This document shows positions 1 through 10,659 of a DNA stretch of 14,347 nt, in pieces. Where the stretch lies: positions 1-14,347 of the forward strand of contig DUKW01000104.1 of NCBI GenBank assembly GCA_013329105.1, written 5' to 3'. Numbering within the stretch: position 1 is the first letter of the stretch; every line of letters begins with the position of its first letter. Under the pieces are notes generated by a model. That model was given only the letters and a program-made list of their open reading frames with translations. It was not told the DNA's origin and made no database searches. The stretch comes from Candidatus Methanomethylophilaceae archaeon (GTDB lineage Archaea > Thermoplasmatota > Thermoplasmata > Methanomassiliicoccales > Methanomethylophilaceae). The position numbers were made by a program, and so were the translations under genes.

Positions 1-732
1 CTGGGCAACCTGACGGTCTTCCTGTGGGCCCTTCGAGAGAGAGAGATGTTCCTGGATCTTTTCGTCAAGCTTTGTGGGCAGAGGATGACCACCAACTATC
101 TTCGCATAGGCGGGGTACGTAACGATATGCCCTATCTCTTTGAGAGGGATTGCATGCGTGTCGTGGAGCTTTTTGAGAAAAGGCTCTGGGATCTTGTCGA
201 TCTCAACGACGAGTCGGCGATATTCCTGTCGAGGATGCAGGGGGTCGGATACATTTCGCGCAAAGATGCGGCTAATATAGGACTCACTGGCCCCACCATG
301 CGAGGAAGCGGTGTGGACTTCGACGTGCGTCGTGACGATCCTTATGAGGTCTACGACGAGTTGGATTTTGAGGTTCCGATCTCTAAGGACGGTGACGCAT
401 ATGCGCGTTATGCTGTGCGCATCGAGGAGATGTTCCAAAGTTGCGAGATCATTCGCCAGGCAATGGCGAGAATGCCAAAGGGTCCTGTCAGGCTCAAGGC
501 CCCACGCAACGTTCCCGAGGGAACTCATTTCGCAAGGATCGAGGATCCACGCGGGGAGGGCCTCATGTATCTGGTTTCTGACGGTAGCGATCATCCTTAT
601 CGATTGAAGGTTAAGAGCCCCATCTTTGTCAATGTGTCCGCAGCGAAGAAGATGGTTCTAGGTGCTAGAATGGCTGACGTACCTGCAATTATGGGCACGG
701 TCGATATGTGTCTTGGGGAGACGGACAGGTGA
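1..732 (+). CDS. fpoD: Fpo/Nuo-like complex subunit D (49-kDa catalytic-type subunit), 5' partial
   Basis: The frame is open from base 1, so the N-terminus lies outside the window; about 243 C-terminal residues are visible. The stretch ALREREMFLDLFVKLCGQRM followed by YLRIGGVRND is the NuoD/FpoD signature. The protein ends in DMCLGETDR, the usual NuoD-type C-terminus, and lacks the DPCxxC ligands of a NiFe hydrogenase, so it is the complex I form and not an Ech or Mbh large subunit. In complex I this subunit sits in the connecting arm beside subunit B and helps form the quinone (or methanophenazine) cavity. The cavity residues near the N-terminus are not visible here. The TGA stop overlaps the Shine-Dalgarno sequence of fpoH, which implies one operon with probable fpoA, fpoB and fpoC upstream (inferred). 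Confidence 0.95.
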   Translation: MGNLTVFLWALREREMFLDLFVKLCGQRMTTNYLRIGGVRNDMPYLFERDCMRVVELFEKRLWDLVDLNDESAIFLSRMQGVGYISRKDAANIGLTGPTMRGSGVDFDVRRDDPYEVYDELDFEVPISKDGDAYARYAVRIEEMFQSCEIIRQAMARMPKGPVRLKAPRNVPEGTHFARIEDPRGEGLMYLVSDGSDHPYRLKVKSPIFVNVSAAKKMVLGARMADVPAIMGTVDMCLGETDR

Positions 733-736
733 TAAT

Positions 737-1891
737 ATGAGCTTTTGGGATTGGGTAACGATTCGCGATTCAACGGCCAACACACTGTCTCCCTTTGACG
801 TTTATAACCTGCCTTATGCCGTAGGCCATGGGCTTTGGGACATAATAGGGGGCATCTTAGCTTGGTTGTTAAACCTAATATTCCCTGGCAATGGGGTTTC
901 CATATGGCTGGTGGGCGATGCTGTGAGCAACGCCCTTGCGCTCATCCTTATGGCCGTTGTTGTGTTTGCTGTCATATTCGTAGTGAATATAACTATGATA
1001 TGGGCGGAGAGGAAAGTATTAGGCAGGATTATGGACCGCCGTGCGACACGTATAGGTCCTGCAGGATATTTGCAGAACATCGCTGATGGTCTCAAAACTT
1101 TCCTCAAAGAGAATATCATTCCCGATAAGGCCGACAAGAAGGGTTATATGTGGGCCGTGACCCTGGTCATCGGTAGTGCTATTCTCGTATCTGGAATGAT
1201 TCCGCTGAGCCCCAGATGGTTCCTAACCGACTATGGGGTGGGTCTTCTTATAATATACGGATTGTTCGCTGTGGCTCCGTTCATGATTCTGGTGGCCGGT
1301 TGGTCACAGAACAACAAATACTCACTATTAGGTGGTATGAGAGCGGCAGCGCAGATGATCAGCTATGAGGTACCCATGCTCATGGTCTTCGCCAGCGTTG
1401 TACTGATGGCGGGCAGTCTCAACATAAATGACATAGTGCAGTTCCAGATGGACAACACATGGTTCATAGTTCCGCAGATAATTGGGTTTGTAGTTTTCCT
1501 GGTAGCCACGATTGCAGAGGCGGAAAGGATACCTTTCGATCTCCCTGAGGCGGAGGCCGAGCTAGTCGAGGGGTGGCAGACCGAATATGGCGGTATGAAG
1601 TGGGGGCTGATCATGCTAGGTGATTACTTCCGCGGTTATATCGCCTGTGCACTGGGAGCTATAATGTTCCTGGGTGGCTGGGCGGTCCCATTCACCGATT
1701 CCCTTATCATACCGGAGATAGTGTTCCTACTGAAGGTTTTCCTGTTGTTCTTCGTGATGATATGGGTCAGAGGGACATTTGCCCGTATCAGAACAGATCA
1801 GATCCTGAACATCGGTTGGAAAGTCTTGCTCCCTCTGGCAGTATTGAACCTGCTTGTCGTGGTGCTGCTTAAGATGGGAGGTGTTTATTGA
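737..1891 (+). CDS. fpoH: Fpo/Nuo-like complex membrane subunit H
   Basis: This 384-residue polytopic membrane protein anchors the connecting arm to the membrane arm and forms the entrance to the quinone-type site. Family motifs seen are AERKVLGRIMDRR (about residues 90-102) with RIGPAGYLQNIADGLK after it, GMRAAAQMISYEVP (200-213), and the acidic loop PFDLPEAEAELVEGWQTEYG (266-285). The ATG at 737 was chosen because AGGTGA (727-732) precedes it and an upstream in-frame ATG at 662 lies deep inside fpoD. The AERK motif starts near residue 90, whereas in E. coli NuoH it lies near residue 40. The protein therefore seems to have an N-terminal extension of about 50 residues that includes a hydrophobic stretch (about 38-49). 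The stop codon overlaps the fpoI start. Confidence 0.95.
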   Translation: MSFWDWVTIRDSTANTLSPFDVYNLPYAVGHGLWDIIGGILAWLLNLIFPGNGVSIWLVGDAVSNALALILMAVVVFAVIFVVNITMIWAERKVLGRIMDRRATRIGPAGYLQNIADGLKTFLKENIIPDKADKKGYMWAVTLVIGSAILVSGMIPLSPRWFLTDYGVGLLIIYGLFAVAPFMILVAGWSQNNKYSLLGGMRAAAQMISYEVPMLMVFASVVLMAGSLNINDIVQFQMDNTWFIVPQIIGFVVFLVATIAEAERIPFDLPEAEAELVEGWQTEYGGMKWGLIMLGDYFRGYIACALGAIMFLGGWAVPFTDSLIIPEIVFLLKVFLLFFVMIWVRGTFARIRTDQILNIGWKVLLPLAVLNLLVVVLLKMGGVY

Positions 1892-2631
1892 TGGCGCTTA
1901 AGTTTCTTGATAAGTATCCTAAAAACACTGCCCGGCATCTTTGGGTATTGAGGCCGCTCTATGCGACCTTGAAAAATATGATAAGGACAACTATACACCG
2001 GCCGGTTACTATCATGTATCCTTACGAAAAGGAATGGATACCTGATAACTACCGTGGAAGGCCAGGATTGGTGTTCGAGAAATGTTTGGGGTGTGGCATA
2101 TGTGAAAGCATGTGCCCAACTACCTGTATCGAAATGGTGGAAGTCGACGATGAAAAACTGGGAAAGGTTAGAAGACCTCAGGTGAACGTCGGCCGCTGTA
2201 TGATGTGCGGATACTGTGCCGAATATTGCCCAGTGAATGCAATGACAGTCACACCCGATTATGAGCTTGCCGCTTTTACCCGAGAGGATCTTATCTTCGA
2301 TCCCTACCGTCTTAAGTGGGAGAATGTAACTCAGGGTATGGAGGTGCATCTTGAGGAGCACCTGCCGTCAAACCTTGCAAAGGGTATATACGACCAGCCT
2401 ACGGCATATTTCAAGGTAGATAGGCCAAAGCTCATAGAGGATAAGTGTATAAGCTGCGCCCGCTGCTCCAAAACATGTCCAGTGGGGGCCATTGAGATGG
2501 TGGAAGTGGGTGTCAATGAGAAAGGAAAGCCAATCAAACACCCCAAGGTGGACGATTCAAAGTGCGTGTTCTGTCAGCAATGTATAAACATCTGTCCTAA
2601 GAGTGCGCTAGAAATAAACGAGGTGCTCTGA
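1891..2631 (+). CDS. fpoI: Fpo/Nuo-like complex iron-sulfur subunit I with four 4Fe-4S motifs
   Basis: This 246-residue protein carries electrons through 4Fe-4S clusters toward subunit B. It contains four canonical CxxCxxCxxxCP motifs: C65/C68/C71/C75, C103/C106/C109/C113, C186/C189/C192/C196 and C225/C228/C231/C235. The first pair, with the N-terminal lead, is the standard NuoI/FpoI domain. The second pair forms an additional complete 2[4Fe-4S] ferredoxin-like domain after a linker of about 70 residues. Usual FpoI/NuoI proteins have two clusters and are shorter. An extra cysteine (C79) follows cluster 1. The ATG at 1891 is favoured over the adjacent TTG at 1888 and is served by GGGAGGTG (1876-1883). 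It overlaps the fpoH stop (TGATG), and its own stop overlaps fpoJ in the same way, so translation is probably coupled. With no fpoF in view, the extra domain may be the electron entry point (inference). Confidence 0.95.
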   Translation: MALKFLDKYPKNTARHLWVLRPLYATLKNMIRTTIHRPVTIMYPYEKEWIPDNYRGRPGLVFEKCLGCGICESMCPTTCIEMVEVDDEKLGKVRRPQVNVGRCMMCGYCAEYCPVNAMTVTPDYELAAFTREDLIFDPYRLKWENVTQGMEVHLEEHLPSNLAKGIYDQPTAYFKVDRPKLIEDKCISCARCSKTCPVGAIEMVEVGVNEKGKPIKHPKVDDSKCVFCQQCINICPKSALEINEVL

Positions 2632-2945
2632 TGTTTGGAATTGACTCAAGCGATGTGCTGGGAATGGATCTCAGTTGGTTCGGTTTGGACACCTTTTTCT
2701 TCCTGATTGTGGCAGCTATAACAGTTGCCGCGGCGATCTATGTGATATATTCGGAGGAGGTGGTCCATAGCGCCCTTTATCTGGCATTGACCTTTGTAGG
2801 GGTGGCTCTTGTCTACTTCTTCCTGAATGCAGAGTATATGGCTGTTATTCAGTTGATGGTCTATGTCGGTGCGGTCACCATTCTGTTCGCTTTCAGCATA
2901 ATGCTGACCAGGAGGAACATGGTCGGAGGTGATTCCGATGAATAA
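2631..2945 (+). CDS. fpoJ: Fpo/Nuo-like complex subunit J, N-terminal half
   Basis: This 104-residue membrane protein corresponds to the N-terminal part of NuoJ. It has about three hydrophobic helices, and the segment YMAVIQLMVYVGAVTILFAF (about residues 67-86) matches the conserved NuoJ TM3 region, whose pi-bulge helix is part of the coupling path in complex I. A split J gene is known from methanogen fpo operons. GAGGTG (2620-2625) precedes the ATG, which overlaps the fpoI stop. The TAA stop overlaps the next half-gene by 8 bp. Confidence 0.93.
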   Translation: MFGIDSSDVLGMDLSWFGLDTFFFLIVAAITVAAAIYVIYSEEVVHSALYLALTFVGVALVYFFLNAEYMAVIQLMVYVGAVTILFAFSIMLTRRNMVGGDSDE

Positions 2946-3195
2946 GAAGATCATGATAGGGCTGACCCTAACGGTTTTGTTGGGAGCCTTGTTGATCGGT
3001 ACTGCCGTTACTGTTGACTGGGGTGCAGGAGATGAGATACATGCTATCCCATTCAACCCTCCTGAGGGAGAGATTTCTGATACCCTGAATCAGGTCTTGT
3101 TTGATGAATATGGTGCGGTAGTTATGGTAATGGCCGTGCTGATGTTCTCTGCCATCATTGGCGGGGTATTCCTAGCTAAGGAGGACTGGGAATGA
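2938..3195 (+). CDS. fpoJ: Fpo/Nuo-like complex subunit J, C-terminal half
   Basis: This 85-residue membrane protein has two hydrophobic helices (about residues 5-25 and 60-80). Its position directly after the N-terminal J half and before K identifies it as the C-terminal half of NuoJ, as in the methanogen J-J arrangement. The ATG at 2938 is favoured: GGAGGT at 2925-2930 gives a 7-nt spacing, while the alternative GTG at 2929 lies inside that Shine-Dalgarno sequence. Its reading frame differs from that of the first half, so the two are separate genes and not a single frame broken by a stop. The stop overlaps the fpoK start. Confidence 0.88.
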   Translation: MNKKIMIGLTLTVLLGALLIGTAVTVDWGAGDEIHAIPFNPPEGEISDTLNQVLFDEYGAVVMVMAVLMFSAIIGGVFLAKEDWE

Positions 3196-3494
3196 TACCC
3201 ATAGAGATGTTCCTGGGGCTCTCGGCAATCCTCTTTGCTGTTGGGGCATTCGGTGTACTGACAAAGAAGAACGGTCTGGTAGTATTGATGTGTATTGAAA
3301 TGATGCTCAACGCGGCCAATATTAATCTTGTTGCCTTCTCCGCCTTTTTTAACGACGTTGTTGGGCAAATCTTTGTGATCATGACCATAACTGTGGCCGC
3401 TGCGGAGGTAGCTGTAGGTATAGCCATACTGCTTAACCTCTACAAGACCAGCGGAACGACCGATTTGGAAGATATAAATCTCCTGAGGTGGTGA
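3192..3494 (+). CDS. fpoK: Fpo/Nuo-like complex subunit K
   Basis: This 100-residue protein with three transmembrane helices matches NuoK in length and sequence. The two membrane-embedded glutamates needed for proton translocation are visible as E36 in VLMCIEMMLNAANIN and E72 in VAAAEVAVGIAI, at the same positions as in E. coli NuoK. The Shine-Dalgarno sequence AAGGAGG lies at 3178-3184, and the ATG overlaps the preceding stop (ATGA). It belongs to the same operon and acts in the membrane arm between J and the antiporter-like subunits. Confidence 0.96.
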   Translation: MIPIEMFLGLSAILFAVGAFGVLTKKNGLVVLMCIEMMLNAANINLVAFSAFFNDVVGQIFVIMTITVAAAEVAVGIAILLNLYKTSGTTDLEDINLLRW

Positions 3495-3498
3495 ACAG

Positions 3499-5535
3499 AT
3501 GTTGTTCATAGATTATGCATGGTTGATACCAATAATCCCGCTGGCCGCGTTTCTGATAATTGGGTTTTTCGGTCACAAGACACCTGAAGGAGGCGGCTAC
3601 ATAGCCATCATAGCAGCCGCCGTATCTTTTGTACTCTCAGCGTTGGTCGGTTACGAGATCCTGTCCGGTACTGTGGCTGCGCCGTATGTCAACGATATCG
3701 TGTGGTTGGAGATGTCTCCAGGCGTTGTTCTGAACTTCGGCCTGTATATCGATAACCTCTCTGTGCTGATGTTGATATTTTCATCACTTATCAGCACCCT
3801 GATCTTCATTTACTCGATTGGGTACATGCACGATCAGGGAGAAAGGAAGAGAAGATACTACACAGAGGTGTCTCTTTTCCTGACTGCGATGCTAGGCCTG
3901 GTCATATCCAGCAACTTCTTGGAGATGTTCATCTTCTGGGAGATTGTTGGTCTATGCTCATACCTTCTAATAGGTTTCTGGGGTTTCAAGCATCCAAAGG
4001 GTGAGAAGGCATCCATTGCTGCTGCCTCAGCAGCAAAGAAGGCCTTCTTGGTTACCAGAATGGGAGACGTATCTCTGTTGGCCGGACTATTCGTTTTGCT
4101 TAACGCCTTTGGCAGCCTAGATTTCGTCTCTCTGTTCGATCCGGCCAACATCGCCGCGGTAGATAATTCGACATTAGCGTTGGGATCGTTACTGATCTTT
4201 GGCGGCGTCATCGGTAAGAGCGCGCAGTTCCCGCTGCATGACTGGTTGCCAGACGCTATGGAGGGTCCGACTACTGTCTCCGCCCTGATTCATGCCGCAA
4301 CGATGGTTAAGGCCGGTGTCTATCTCACTGCCCGCTCCCTGCCGCTCTTTGTGCAGTCCACGGATGTAACGCTATTCGTAGCAGTAATCGGTGGTTTCAC
4401 GGCCTTCTATGCAGCGACAATGGCTCTGAACAACATGAACATAAAGAGAGTGCTTGCCTATTCCACTCTCTCTCAGCTGGGATATATGGTCCTTGCATTG
4501 GGCGCTGCTGGTTACATGATGGCCGCCAGCCTTGCAGCGGGCGATGTTGAAGTGGACCATGCGATGGGATATACAGCCGGCACTTTCCATATGATGAACC
4601 ATGCGTTCTTTAAAGCCCTGCTATTCCTGGGTGCGGGTTCGGTCATACATGCCGTAGGTACTGAGGACATGCGTCAGATGGGGGGACTGCGCAAGCGCAT
4701 GAGCATAACATCCATAACCATGCTCATAGCCACGCTAGCAATCGCCGGGATACCGTTATTCTCTGGTTTCTGGTCCAAAGATCTGATACTCGAGTCCGTG
4801 CTGCATGTGGCGGAAGGAGGTCACGGCGCCGCATCGGCAGTGTTCTTGATACTGTTCGTGCTGGCACTTGTAACTGCGTTCATGACAGCCTTCTACATGT
4901 TCCGTCTATGGTACATGACGTTTGGCGGCGAAGAGGGTGAGGCCAGTAAGCATTGTCACGGCGAATCGCCGAGATCGATGACATATCCGCTTGTCATACT
5001 GTCTGGGTTCGCCGCGCTATCCGGTTTCTTGATTCTCTTCGGCTTCGCTGACGCGCTGACCTTTAATTTTGTTGACGGGGCGTTCGTGGTAGGAGGGCAC
5101 GGGCTGTCGATGATTGAAGTGCTGGAGGACATATTCTTGAATCCGTTCGCCTATGTGTCCATAGCTCTTGCTGTGCTAGGGTTCTATATAGCCTATCGCA
5201 TGTATGAGGTTAGGGACATAGAACCGGGTCGCTACAATCAGTATGGGGAATCCTCTCTGTACAAACTCCTTCAGAAGAGGTATTACTTCCCGGAGTTCTA
5301 CAACGCATTGGCCTTGAAGCTGGCATATCCAGCGGCCATGGCGGTTGAACAGGTCGATCGTAAAGCGGTCGACGGTACGGTCGATGGTATTGCCAACTCC
5401 ATCACAGGGGGCTCGCAGATGCTGAGAAGAATCCAGACAGGGTTTGTTCAGACTTATGCGGCCTTCGTCGTTGGCGGTGTGCTGCTTGTCATCGTCCTGA
5501 TATACCTTATCGGTTACCTTACAGGGGGTCTGTGA
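3499..5535 (+). CDS. fpoL: Fpo/Nuo-like complex antiporter-like subunit L
   Basis: This 678-residue polytopic protein is homologous to NuoL/MrpA and is the distal ion-pumping module of the membrane arm. Visible landmarks are the TM5 glutamate E148 in FIFWEIVGLCSYLLIGFW, the TM7 lysine K240 in GKSAQFPLHDWLPDAMEGPT, and SALIHAATMVKAGVYL just after it. A long C-terminal part (about residues 575-678) contains a predicted amphipathic region and a final hydrophobic helix, consistent with the NuoL lateral helix that clamps the antiporter subunits. The Shine-Dalgarno sequence is GAGGTGG (3485-3491). The length and residues are normal for the family. Confidence 0.97.
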   Translation: MLFIDYAWLIPIIPLAAFLIIGFFGHKTPEGGGYIAIIAAAVSFVLSALVGYEILSGTVAAPYVNDIVWLEMSPGVVLNFGLYIDNLSVLMLIFSSLISTLIFIYSIGYMHDQGERKRRYYTEVSLFLTAMLGLVISSNFLEMFIFWEIVGLCSYLLIGFWGFKHPKGEKASIAAASAAKKAFLVTRMGDVSLLAGLFVLLNAFGSLDFVSLFDPANIAAVDNSTLALGSLLIFGGVIGKSAQFPLHDWLPDAMEGPTTVSALIHAATMVKAGVYLTARSLPLFVQSTDVTLFVAVIGGFTAFYAATMALNNMNIKRVLAYSTLSQLGYMVLALGAAGYMMAASLAAGDVEVDHAMGYTAGTFHMMNHAFFKALLFLGAGSVIHAVGTEDMRQMGGLRKRMSITSITMLIATLAIAGIPLFSGFWSKDLILESVLHVAEGGHGAASAVFLILFVLALVTAFMTAFYMFRLWYMTFGGEEGEASKHCHGESPRSMTYPLVILSGFAALSGFLILFGFADALTFNFVDGAFVVGGHGLSMIEVLEDIFLNPFAYVSIALAVLGFYIAYRMYEVRDIEPGRYNQYGESSLYKLLQKRYYFPEFYNALALKLAYPAAMAVEQVDRKAVDGTVDGIANSITGGSQMLRRIQTGFVQTYAAFVVGGVLLVIVLIYLIGYLTGGL

Positions 5536-5538
5536 ATT

Positions 5539-7053
5539 ATGGCTGACATGATGCTATCATTACTGCTGTTCACCCCTCTGGTGGGAGCAATATTGGCTCT
5601 GTTTATGGCTGGCGAGAAGAGCAAGTACGCACGTTGGGTGGCCCTGATCTTCAGTGTCATACCTCTAGCCATATCTTTGGTTGTTCTGACCAGTTATGAT
5701 ATGGTTGCCGGCGGAACGCAATTCCTTGAGCAGTATACATGGATAGAGACGGCGTTCCTTAAGATGCAGTATATACTGGGCGTAGACGGACTTAGCCTGA
5801 TAATGGTGTTCCTCACCAGCATCCTAGTATTCCTGGTCGTCCTGTTCTCTTGGGAAGAAAAGGAGAGGCCCAACTTCTTCTTTGCTCTAATCCTTGGGAT
5901 GGAGACCGGTCTACTAGGTGTCTTCATGGCTGCCGACTACTTCCTCTTCTTCATCTTCTGGGAGGTCGCGCTGATCCCTATGTACTTCCTTATCAACATA
6001 TGGGGAGGTCCGCGTAGGCACTATGCTGCCATCAAGTTCTTCATATACACTCATGTGGCGAGCTTGATAATGCTAATAGGGATATTTGCCATGGCCTTCG
6101 GTGCCGCTTCCATCTTAGGTGTGTCACAGCTGAACTTCGCCTTCGACACTATATCGGGTGTGGGTTTCTCATCCACTTTCCAAATACTGGTATTTGGGCT
6201 TCTGTTCTTCGGTTTTGCCGTGAAGATGCCCATGGTACCATTCCATACCTGGTTGCCCGATGCGCACGTGGAGGCCCCCACTGCCGGCAGTGTATTACTG
6301 GCGGGAGTGATGCTTAAGATGGGCTCATACGGTCTTATCCGTATCTGTCTGGACGCACTCCCTGATGGAGCAGTGGCTTGGCAGATACCAATGATTATCA
6401 TAGCCCTGGTATCGATCATATACGGTGCTCTTGCCTGTATTGCACAGCGTGACTTGAAAAAGATGGTGGCATTCTCCTCCATCAACCATATGGGTATGGT
6501 CTTGCTGGGAGTGGCGACACTGAGCGATGTTGGTATAGCCGCTGGTGCATTCCTGATGTTTGCCCACGGATTGATCACGGCCGTGCTCTTTATGGTGTGC
6601 GGTATAACCGGTCACAATCTGGGTACCAGGCAGATACCTTTACTGGGAGGCTTGGCGGCGAAGATGCCTAACTATGCTGCATTCATGATGTTCGGATTCA
6701 TGGCCTCTTTGGGCCTACCGGGCCTTGTGGGTTTTGTGGGTGAGTTCACGGTCCTCTCATCGTTCTACGACTGGGCCCTTGCGGAAGGTATGGTATGGTT
6801 GATCATCCTAGGATTGCTCTCTCTGCTGCTTACTGCCGGTTATTACCTCTGGGCTATGCAGAGGAGTATATTCGGTCCTCTGACCGACAGGATCGATACC
6901 AGCAAGGTAAACGACGTGAACATCTTCGAAGGAATATCGTTGGCCGCCCTTTGCGGTTTGATCGCTCTCTTCGGGATATTCCCTGCTCTGGCATGGGATC
7001 TCATCTTCCCTGTAGCTAGTGATATTGCTGCCGTTCTAGTGGGGGTGATCTAA
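5539..7053 (+). CDS. fpoM: Fpo/Nuo-like complex antiporter-like subunit M
   Basis: This 504-residue polytopic protein is homologous to NuoM. Landmarks are YILGVDGLSLIMVFLTS near residue 80, the TM5 glutamate E142 in FFIFWEVALIPMYFLI, and the TM7 lysine K229 in AVKMPMVPFHTWLPDAHVEA, followed by GSVLLAGVMLKMGSYGL. All are expected for an active ion channel half. The ATG lies 3 nt after the fpoL stop, with AGGGGGT at 5523-5529 as the ribosome site. The length is normal for NuoM. Confidence 0.97.
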   Translation: MADMMLSLLLFTPLVGAILALFMAGEKSKYARWVALIFSVIPLAISLVVLTSYDMVAGGTQFLEQYTWIETAFLKMQYILGVDGLSLIMVFLTSILVFLVVLFSWEEKERPNFFFALILGMETGLLGVFMAADYFLFFIFWEVALIPMYFLINIWGGPRRHYAAIKFFIYTHVASLIMLIGIFAMAFGAASILGVSQLNFAFDTISGVGFSSTFQILVFGLLFFGFAVKMPMVPFHTWLPDAHVEAPTAGSVLLAGVMLKMGSYGLIRICLDALPDGAVAWQIPMIIIALVSIIYGALACIAQRDLKKMVAFSSINHMGMVLLGVATLSDVGIAAGAFLMFAHGLITAVLFMVCGITGHNLGTRQIPLLGGLAAKMPNYAAFMMFGFMASLGLPGLVGFVGEFTVLSSFYDWALAEGMVWLIILGLLSLLLTAGYYLWAMQRSIFGPLTDRIDTSKVNDVNIFEGISLAALCGLIALFGIFPALAWDLIFPVASDIAAVLVGVI

Positions 7054-7054
7054 G

Positions 7055-8512
7055 ATGTCATTACCTGATTTCACCTTGATCGCTCCGCAGCTGATCGTAT
7101 TGGTAACTGCGCTGATCATACCAGCGCTTTACTTCCTGACTAAGAACGATAAAGTGGTCGGCCTGGTATCCATCTCGGGTGTGTTGCTGTCGGGAGCCTA
7201 TCTTGCATGGATGATTATCGACGGAGTCTCGGGAGACTTCCTTAGCGTATATGCTGTGGATGACTTTTCCCTGCTCCTTACAGGCTTGTTCCTAACGGTG
7301 GTCTTCCTCGTCCTGCTATCTTCACTGAATACCGTGGAGCGTGACCATCATCACGGTGAGTATTACGCTCTGTTGCTGACAGCGACGTCAGGTATGATGT
7401 TCGTTGCCTGTGCCCAGGATCTGATCGGGCTTTTTGTCGGTCTGGAGCTTACAAGCATGTCCTCCTATGCGCTGGTGGCATTCCGCAAGAACGATCCTCG
7501 TGCTGCTGAGGCTGCCACCAAGTACCTGGTTATCGGAGGATTATCCACTGCCATGACCCTCTACGGTTTCTCCCTGCTCTATGGGATGACGCAGAGTACG
7601 ATGTTTGTTGATATCGCTGCTGCGATAGGGTCCGCGCCCACGGCAGGTCTGATGATTTCCATGGCGTTGATCATAGCAGGTCTGGGTTTCAAGGTCACGA
7701 CAGTGCCTTTCCATATGTGGGCCCCAGATGTGTATGAGGGAGCAGTAACACCCATTTCCACATTCCTGGCGGTAGGCTCTAAGAAGATGGGCTTTGTGGC
7801 GTTGTTCAAGGTTTTCCTTGTCGGGTTCATTGCGGCACAGGCCACAGTGGTTACCGACATGCAGTACATCTTCGCTGCGCTCGCTGCCATAACAATGACT
7901 CTCGGCAATGTGGTGGCTTTGTCCCAGACAAATATCAAGAGGATGTTGGCCTATTCCAGCATAGCTCAGGCAGGTTACCTGTTGATAGTCCTTGCCGTGG
8001 CAACACCATATGCGCTGACAGGCGGTATACTCCACATGATCACCCACGTGTTCATGAAAGGAGGGGCCTTCATAATCGTGGCTGCCCTAGCCTATGTGGC
8101 AGTAGGAGAGAGGATAGACGACTACAAGGGACTTGCAAGAAGGGCGCCCTTGGTTGCCTTCTCCATGTCGATATTCCTCTTCTCTCTGGCAGGCGTGCCG
8201 CCGTTGGCAGGTTTTGTCAGTAAATTTGTACTGTTCTCCAGTGGTGTGGGTGAACCCGGAGCAGCGCTTAGCGGAGAATGGGTCTGGTTGATATTCCTCG
8301 CGGTCATAAATAGCGCCATATCGCTGTACTATTATGCCCGTGTGGTGAAGTATATGTACGTCGATGAAGGCGAGACCAGCGAGAGGATCAAAGTACCGGT
8401 GCCCTTCATGATAGCCATACTTATCTGTTTGGTGGCCGTCATAGGAATCGGTCTTTTCCCAGAACCGCTCATCTCTCTCTGCGAGAGCGCTGCTGCAGCC
8501 CTGATGAACTGA
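7055..8512 (+). CDS. fpoN: Fpo/Nuo-like complex antiporter-like subunit N
   Basis: This 485-residue polytopic protein is homologous to NuoN, the antiporter-like subunit nearest the K/J side of the membrane arm. Visible residues include E131 in GLELTSMSSYALVAFR, K157 in TKYLVIGGL, and K213 in GFKVTTVPFHMWAPDVYEGA, matching the buried charge row of NuoN. The ATG starts one base after the fpoM TAA, and GGGGGTGA (7041-7048) is its ribosome site. It is the last gene of the operon. Neither an fpoO-like nor an fpoF-like gene follows; instead there is an 82-bp gap with T-runs and then a prenyl synthase. Confidence 0.97.
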   Translation: MSLPDFTLIAPQLIVLVTALIIPALYFLTKNDKVVGLVSISGVLLSGAYLAWMIIDGVSGDFLSVYAVDDFSLLLTGLFLTVVFLVLLSSLNTVERDHHHGEYYALLLTATSGMMFVACAQDLIGLFVGLELTSMSSYALVAFRKNDPRAAEAATKYLVIGGLSTAMTLYGFSLLYGMTQSTMFVDIAAAIGSAPTAGLMISMALIIAGLGFKVTTVPFHMWAPDVYEGAVTPISTFLAVGSKKMGFVALFKVFLVGFIAAQATVVTDMQYIFAALAAITMTLGNVVALSQTNIKRMLAYSSIAQAGYLLIVLAVATPYALTGGILHMITHVFMKGGAFIIVAALAYVAVGERIDDYKGLARRAPLVAFSMSIFLFSLAGVPPLAGFVSKFVLFSSGVGEPGAALSGEWVWLIFLAVINSAISLYYYARVVKYMYVDEGETSERIKVPVPFMIAILICLVAVIGIGLFPEPLISLCESAAAALMN

Positions 8513-9564: not shown

Positions 9565-10659
9565 ATGTCCGACATAATGGAAACGGACGTTCTGGTTGTC
9601 GGTGCAGGTCCGGCTGGAAGCACAGTCGCACGTTATGCTGCTGAGAAAGGACTTGATGTAACGCTCATCGAAAGAAGGTAAAAAATAGGCATTCCTTTCC
9701 GTTGTGGAGAGTTCATGCCCGATGTCAGTGAGATAAAGGCCATTTTCCCCTCTGCGACTGACCTTGATGAGCTGTTTAACATACCCCCATCATTACGCCG
9801 AAGGGATATCGGGGCTATACGGGTGGTAACGCCAAAAGGCAGGAGCTACGACAACCCGTTCCAGGGATATAGCACTGACCGTGATCGCTTTGATCAGTAT
9901 TTAGCGTCTGAAGCAGTATCAGCAGGGGCAGAGCTTATTACCTCATGTGCCTTCATAAAAGCTGCAGATGGTCTTTATCAGACATCAAAGGGGACTTTCA
10001 GAGCCAAGGTTATAGTGGGCGCTGATGGGCCAGGTTCTAGAGTAGCTCGAGAGATGGGACTTCCCTTGCCTAAGCATCCATACCCTGCTGTTGCTGCGCA
10101 GGCGAAGGGGGATTTTGAACCTGTACTGACGATGTTCTTCGGGGGCATAGCTCCTGGGGCATATGGGTGGATCATTCCTAAGGACGGCTCTGCAAATGTG
10201 GGTGTGGGGTGTTCTCCAAAACTGGCTGATCTCCGCCCGTCGGACTATTTTTATCGCTTTGTGGAAACACATGATCTAAACGTGACCAGTCGCATAAGCG
10301 GTAAATATGTACCCGCCCAAGGGCCGATAAAGCCAATATACGATGAGGGCGCCATCACTGTGGGTGATGCGGCAGGGCATGTGATGGCTGTGAATGGCGG
10401 CGGCATACCGCTGGCAATGATCGCCGGGAGGACGGCTGCGGATGTTTTGGAGAAACACATTGTGAAAGGCGGCCCCATTTCTTTATATCAGGAGAGATTA
10501 GAGAACACAATCTTCGGGCCTCTGCGCAGTGCCGCGCGTACTAAGTGGCTGGCAGACGTCTTCGCTTTCGGTTCCGATTTTCGTACGGAATGGTGCATGC
10601 GTACGCTGGGGAGAAGGCGCATCTCGAAGATCTTGCGCTGCCGTTTTCCGTTTCCTTAG
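9565..10659 (+). pseudogene. Geranylgeranyl reductase-family flavoprotein interrupted by in-frame TAA
   Basis: The ATG at 9565 follows AGGTGA (9555-9560) and opens a frame with the FAD-binding motif VVGAGPAGS (residues 11-19). Codon 39 (9679-9681) is TAA. The same frame then continues without further stops through KIGIPFRCGEFMP, YGWIIPKDGSANVGVG, VGADGPGSRVA and GDAAGHVMAVNGGGIP to a TAG at 10657. The total is 364 codons before the stop, roughly the family length. Such enzymes hydrogenate the double bonds of geranylgeranyl chains in archaeal lipids or related isoprenoids. The interruption looks like one substitution (for example CAA to TAA), with no frame change. An ATG at 9715 preceded by GGAG could restart translation, but that 314-residue product would lack the FAD Rossmann start. 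It may be a pseudogene, a sequence error or a recoded gene. It pairs with the prenyl synthase directly upstream. Confidence 0.85.

Follow-up and report, generated by a model that had tools for sequence, protein, structure and literature searches.

The 14,347 nucleotides analysed here (the window; forward strand of contig DUKW01000104.1, assembly GCA_013329105.1, from a Candidatus Methanomethylophilaceae archaeon of the order Methanomassiliicoccales, class Thermoplasmata) carry an fpoI gene whose product consists of an ordinary NuoI/FpoI core (residues 30–140) and, at about residues 176–246, an added ferredoxin domain of the 2[4Fe-4S] type, an architecture that is confirmed by the present analysis. 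The frame begins with ATG on the + strand and stays open for 246 amino acids, and it holds four CxxCxxCxxxCP motifs in place of the exactly two expected of NuoI/FpoI, a number that the core alone has; C79 is the sole cysteine beyond the 16 assigned to clusters. With a probability of roughly 60 per cent, the extra domain is a covalently attached, ferredoxin-like input wire through which electrons reach the core clusters in a headless Fpo complex. The elements of the gene are as follows.

1891..2631, + strand: fpoI, 246 amino acids, four [4Fe-4S] motifs
2083..2118, + strand: cluster motif 1, residues 65–76, core dicluster (N6a/N6b pair by homology), within the NuoI match
2197..2232, + strand: cluster motif 2, residues 103–114, core dicluster, within the NuoI match
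2251..2415, + strand: NuoI-like tail and linker, residues 121–175
2416..2628, + strand: extra C-terminal 2[4Fe-4S] ferredoxin-type domain, residues 176–246 (Fer4_7 at 185–239; structural matches at about 170–245)
2446..2481, + strand: cluster motif 3, residues 186–197, cysteines invariant
2563..2598, + strand: cluster motif 4, residues 225–236, cysteines invariant

The original prediction, made from the letters of the window, had claimed four complete motifs in one uninterrupted 246-residue frame, and this is borne out by the frame, the motif positions and the homologues. The interval it gave (2068–2631) falls within fpoI but takes in residues 60–246 only, the gene itself starting at 1891. The NuoI model TIGR01971 is passed at 155.3 bits (cut-off 113.05) as the sum of two stretches, the best of them at residues 30–140; the core alone, at 113.8 bits, is barely above the cut-off. 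Gene order, with fpoI lying between fpoH and fpoJ in the fpo cluster, is likewise that of a NuoI/FpoI gene. The C-terminal part, with its two motifs, its Fer4_7 dicluster match, its fold matches and the secondary structure of its model, has the features of a 2[4Fe-4S] ferredoxin domain, and the added unit is real, conserved and of ferredoxin type, as predicted.

That the family normally has two clusters also agrees with the curated FpoI model. Methanosarcina-type FpoI, represented by this model (NF040612), is homologous to window residues 27–144 and has the same two core clusters, but its 135 positions offer room for two clusters and none for a second dicluster. The window protein scores 118.1 bits against it (80.1 for the core alone) where the cut-off is 180, and so falls outside that family; the cut-off was passed by none of 194 genomes of the phylum and by one of 14 controls. 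A four-cluster layout in ordinary FpoI, which would have spoken against a special architecture here, was not seen with NF040612, the model through which, in place of individual Methanosarcina proteins, ordinary FpoI was judged.

Conservation of the layout within the Methanomassiliicoccales is nearly complete. A protein search found 239 relatives, and exactly four motifs were counted in 120 of 120 among the matches listed, which include one fragment and the protein of the window itself; when 42 of those homologues were aligned with the latter (43 sequences), all 16 cluster cysteines proved invariant. The four-motif layout is therefore not a product of chance. The prediction had proposed mapping the extra domain by aligning FpoI across the order, and among the 300 genomes of the class that were searched, 65 belong to it (44 of the window's own family, its own genome included, and 21 of five other families). 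FpoI, extra domain included, is encoded through to the C-terminus in 64 of these, as a single match ending at residue 244 or later in 62 and as a two-piece match in G229 and G250; G289 is the sole one in which no FpoI match was found. Four motifs are present at 81 of 82 loci of the order (79 by script, L064 and L065 by direct translation), a tally in which some genomes are counted under both handle and record name, and L074 shows three because its contig ends there. The listed homologues, these loci and the invariant cysteines together rule out a frameshift or a chance reading of four motifs. Separately, two contigs of one metagenome-assembled genome (isolate CSBr16_145; L035 and L036) each carry a four-motif FpoI, 81 and 80 per cent identical to the window's, which reflects either mixed strains or two copies.

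It might be supposed that the extra clusters are not part of the electron path, the domain serving structure, assembly or electron storage. Complex I is known to have clusters of this kind (N7), and two-cluster relatives of FpoI exist, yet the eight extra cluster cysteines are as strictly invariant as those of the core and the domain is kept in all but one genome of the order, so that such a role appears improbable.

In complex I, electrons get to the membrane arm via the clusters of subunit I, and a ferredoxin domain fused to that subunit, where no dehydrogenase module is recognised, is most simply an input extension. In FpoI, the NuoI/FpoI core with its two clusters (N6a/N6b equivalents by homology) is followed by a linker of about 60 residues and the second 2[4Fe-4S] domain. 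In the arrangement we favour, reduced ferredoxin, thought in this order to come from MvhADG-HdrABC, would give its electrons to the C-terminal clusters, and these would pass them to the core clusters and then to FpoB, driving proton pumping. Four parts of this scheme are inferred: cluster assembly, a position close enough to the core clusters for tunnelling, ferredoxin as donor, and inward flow. According to proposals in the literature, ferredoxin reduced by MvhADG-HdrABC is oxidised by the Fpo-like complex of the order, whose electrons go to HdrD or a lipid carrier (PMC4153887, PMC7374477, PMC6147122, PMC6019823). In the window's genome, CCG proteins and a single large subunit of [NiFe] hydrogenase are encoded, which is compatible with the ferredoxin scheme.

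According to passages of this literature, electron entry into the Fpo-like complex of the seventh methanogen order is not settled, and the complex has been proposed as a main proton pump. The question of electron input becomes testable with a conserved domain of about 70 residues that belongs to a single subunit and lends itself to removal or to study in isolation. No mention of the extra FpoI domain was found in the part of the literature on Fpo-like complexes that was covered, and it is not claimed here as unpublished.

The AlphaFold2 model of FpoI has a predicted local distance difference test score of 84.6 and a predicted template modelling (TM) score of 0.69, and the fold predicted for the extra domain matches the appended ferredoxin domains of ferredoxin-linked enzymes. 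Among these, HydB (8a5e) and HdrA (7bkb) are also redox subunits with an attached 2[4Fe-4S] domain, matched structurally by FpoI at about residues 170–245; their ferredoxin domains are attached to flavoproteins and not to subunit I of complex I. None of the 50 Foldseek matches listed has a TM-score above 0.37 over the model, and hence no listed chain covers both halves of FpoI in one arrangement.

Several observations weigh against an input wire. The AlphaFold2 model leaves the relative orientation of the two halves unfixed, and structural matches of the strength found are expected for many ferredoxin domains. The extra domain is near neutral, with a net charge of +1 for the window protein and of -0.1 on average across the 43 sequences, and lacks the basic surface that one might expect of a site for docking acidic ferredoxin. 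The C-terminal module is also less conserved than the core, with a mean pairwise identity of 0.62 vs 0.72. Finally, two-cluster complexes without an FpoF domain exist, and the extra domain is therefore not generally needed for an FpoF-less complex.

This last point bears on the context in which the domain had been predicted. No fpoF follows fpoN, as had been stated: the next genes encode a polyprenyl synthetase and a geranylgeranyl reductase, and the FrhB_FdhB_C domain, searched as a proxy for FpoF, was not found in the window's genome (73% complete), whereas an F420H2-oxidising Fpo would be expected to have it. Of 101 genomes of the order, 13 had a match and 88 did not; among 31 representatives of the class the figures were 7 and 24, these being domain matches and not necessarily FpoF. 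Passages of published work report FpoO as missing in three genomes of the order (PMC4153887) and describe Methanothrix Fpo without FpoF (PMC12918732, PMC7399021). The extra ferredoxin domain cannot, for all that, be regarded as a consequence of lacking FpoF. FrhB_FdhB_C was found in none of the seven two-cluster representatives (families f18, f22, f30 and f33), and in none of the three representatives of f8 and f24, which have more clusters than the window protein; a missing FpoF domain accompanies two-cluster and multi-cluster architectures alike. FpoF loss thus does not predict the extra domain, and a rule by which its absence entails extra clusters is ruled out by these FpoF-less two-cluster families together with Methanotrichaceae-type FpoI.

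The latter (P0224, P0226, P0233, P0234, P0238 and P0239, of which P0224 alone carries the family name and the other five are assigned by likeness) resembles the window protein in having a core and a C-terminal extension, but has two clusters, and its extension lacks a [4Fe-4S] motif. That tail holds 14–21 lysines and is rich in alanine in five of the six, P0238 being the exception; a Lys-rich FpoI tail in Methanosaeta has reportedly been remarked upon before. NdhI of photosynthetic complex I (6hum) was the third sequence match in the PDB and the best to a subunit I, over FpoI residues 36–182. It is subunit I of a complex without an NADH module that has ferredoxin as its donor; unlike window FpoI, it has two clusters and a cluster-free tail. 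Among the archaeal relatives, NuoI/FpoI of f8 and f24 likewise consists of a core with ferredoxin-type additions, but has two extra diclusters against one in the window, with a last motif spacing of 46 vs 39. The series of two, four and six motifs, the Lys-rich Methanotrichaceae-type tail and the two-cluster forms suggest several solutions to electron input in complex I lineages without a dehydrogenase module.

The distribution of these forms was followed across 33 families of the class, 22 of which could be assigned an architecture, on the basis of few genomes per family outside the order (f9, f11, f12, f15, f16, f17, f20, f21, f26, f29 and f32 remain without one). Two motifs are found in f10, f18, f22, f30 and f33 and, beyond the class but within the phylum, in f35, f53, f59, f60 and f62; four in f1–f6 of the order and in f13, f14, f19, f23, f25, f27, f28 and f31; three in f7; and five or six in f8 and f24 (two f8 genomes have six; a third and f24 have five by the strict pattern). 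MCR alpha was found in 7 of the 31 class representatives, exactly the seven of the order, and several mcrA-negative families share the extra ferredoxin domain. The order-wide spread and these mcrA-negative carriers rule out a trait of the genus or of methanogens alone, and the domain spans the order and probably predates it.

The same distribution bears on a docking or relay arm for one dedicated partner, such as HdrA of HdrABC-MvhADG, with input that bypasses free ferredoxin, or HdrD, with electrons channelled to heterodisulfide, as in an Fpo-Hdr supercomplex. Published work does propose that HdrD acts directly with the Fpo-like complex (PMC7374477, PMC6147122, PMC6019823), the extra domain resembles in fold a domain of 7bkb chain A, taken as HdrA, and each of the 13 genomes searched (the window's own and 12 relatives) encodes CCG-domain (HdrB/HdrD-type) proteins; in f25 and f31 a CCG protein is encoded within 3 kb of the fpoB-fpoI pair. 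Yet CCG proteins have little specificity, occurring in 12 of 14 control genomes, Escherichia coli included; the fold match is one expected of many ferredoxin domains, and no gene next to fpoI in the window was recognised as hdr. Methanogens may well have a dedicated Hdr partner, but this would leave unexplained the domain of the same type in mcrA-negative relatives; we regard this account as unlikely, and the domain is specific neither to this methanogen nor to heterodisulfide chemistry. A relay or docking module as such is plausible, but its scope should be extended beyond this methanogen, to complex I in the class as a whole.

A donor other than ferredoxin (flavodoxin or another oxidoreductase), or an electron exit in a reverse, ferredoxin-reducing mode, would be a further way to read the domain. 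The non-methanogenic relatives that carry it have no known donor, and a gene for a luciferase-like monooxygenase, possibly a flavin or F420 enzyme, follows fpoI in f25 (L163), but this is the sole flavin-enzyme type among 17 Pfam-scanned genes, a minority of those that flank fpo in four- and six-cluster families, and we hold such a donor or direction to be very improbable.

Returning to the input wire, a broader version of it can be put forward tentatively, at somewhat less than even odds. In Thermoplasmata, a complex I that lacks an NADH or F420H2 module may have evolved a modular Fe-S wire in subunit I, in which up to two ferredoxin units are added to the core (2, 4 or 6 clusters in all). 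The wire would replace the input module covalently and be set to each lineage's donor, and the methanogens of the order would have inherited the four-cluster form from non-methanogenic ancestors.

In a core-domain tree of 44 rows, from which a signature filter had removed f10, f35 and f62 (two motifs) and f19 (four) beforehand, the order joins f23, f25, f27, f28, f31, f7 and one database protein in a group of 20 rows (support 81/88), all four-motif except f7, and the f8 and f24 rows form a single clade (100/99). The four-cluster f13 adjoins two-cluster rows and f14 stands separate, so that multiple gains, or some losses, have to be assumed; the tree requires four label changes where the minimum would be two. 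A module tree resting on 72 columns only unites the C-terminal modules with a spacing of 39–41 of the order and f23–f31 (94/78), a group that also takes in the f14 module with its spacing of 46. The domain may have had one or several origins, by internal duplication or by capture. A third protein search returned, among its stronger organism-named matches, four from Thermoplasmata, one from Methanomassiliicoccales and one from Methanobacteriota/Euryarchaeota, and among the weaker one each from Helarchaeota and Cetobacterium, both possibly other polyferredoxins.

In f25, f27, f28 and f31 (L163, L164, L165 and L167), the fpoB-fpoI pair is set apart from the remaining fpo genes. A soluble unit without a membrane arm was considered for it and rejected, because fpoD and fpoH sit on other contigs of these genomes. 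The CCG gene near the pair in L163 and L167 is of CCG + Fer4 type (HdrD/GlpC-like) by Pfam; L164:14528-15691 resembles such a gene by look.

Around fpoI, the window holds the downstream part of an fpo operon, comprising the 3' part of fpoD and then fpoH to fpoN.

1..732, + strand: fpoD, 3' part; the contig starts within the gene
737..1891, + strand: fpoH, start inferred, frame open from 662
2631..3195, + strand: fpoJ as two genes (2631–2945 and 2929–3195)
3192..3494, + strand: fpoK
3499..8512, + strand: fpoL, fpoM and fpoN, named from gene order and likeness

The geranylgeranyl reductase frame, 3' of the polyprenyl synthetase gene, has an in-frame TAA at 9679–9681, because of which the 314-residue open reading frame from 9715 lacks the N-terminal FAD-binding part; this is either a real disruption or a sequencing error. 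The fpo clusters of f8 and f24 are likewise followed by GGPPS- and GGR-like genes, and their six-motif FpoI/NuoI genes (one motif degenerate in f24) lie at L150:9952-10869, L151:9540-10451 and L162:9337-10311. Two further proteins combine a NuoI-like part with other elements: P0235 has six cluster motifs in 245 residues with a NuoI-like start, and L141 (family f42) has, in a 629-residue frame, a NuoI-like domain together with a GltD-like oxidoreductase part and by eye resembles NCBIfam PRK13984.
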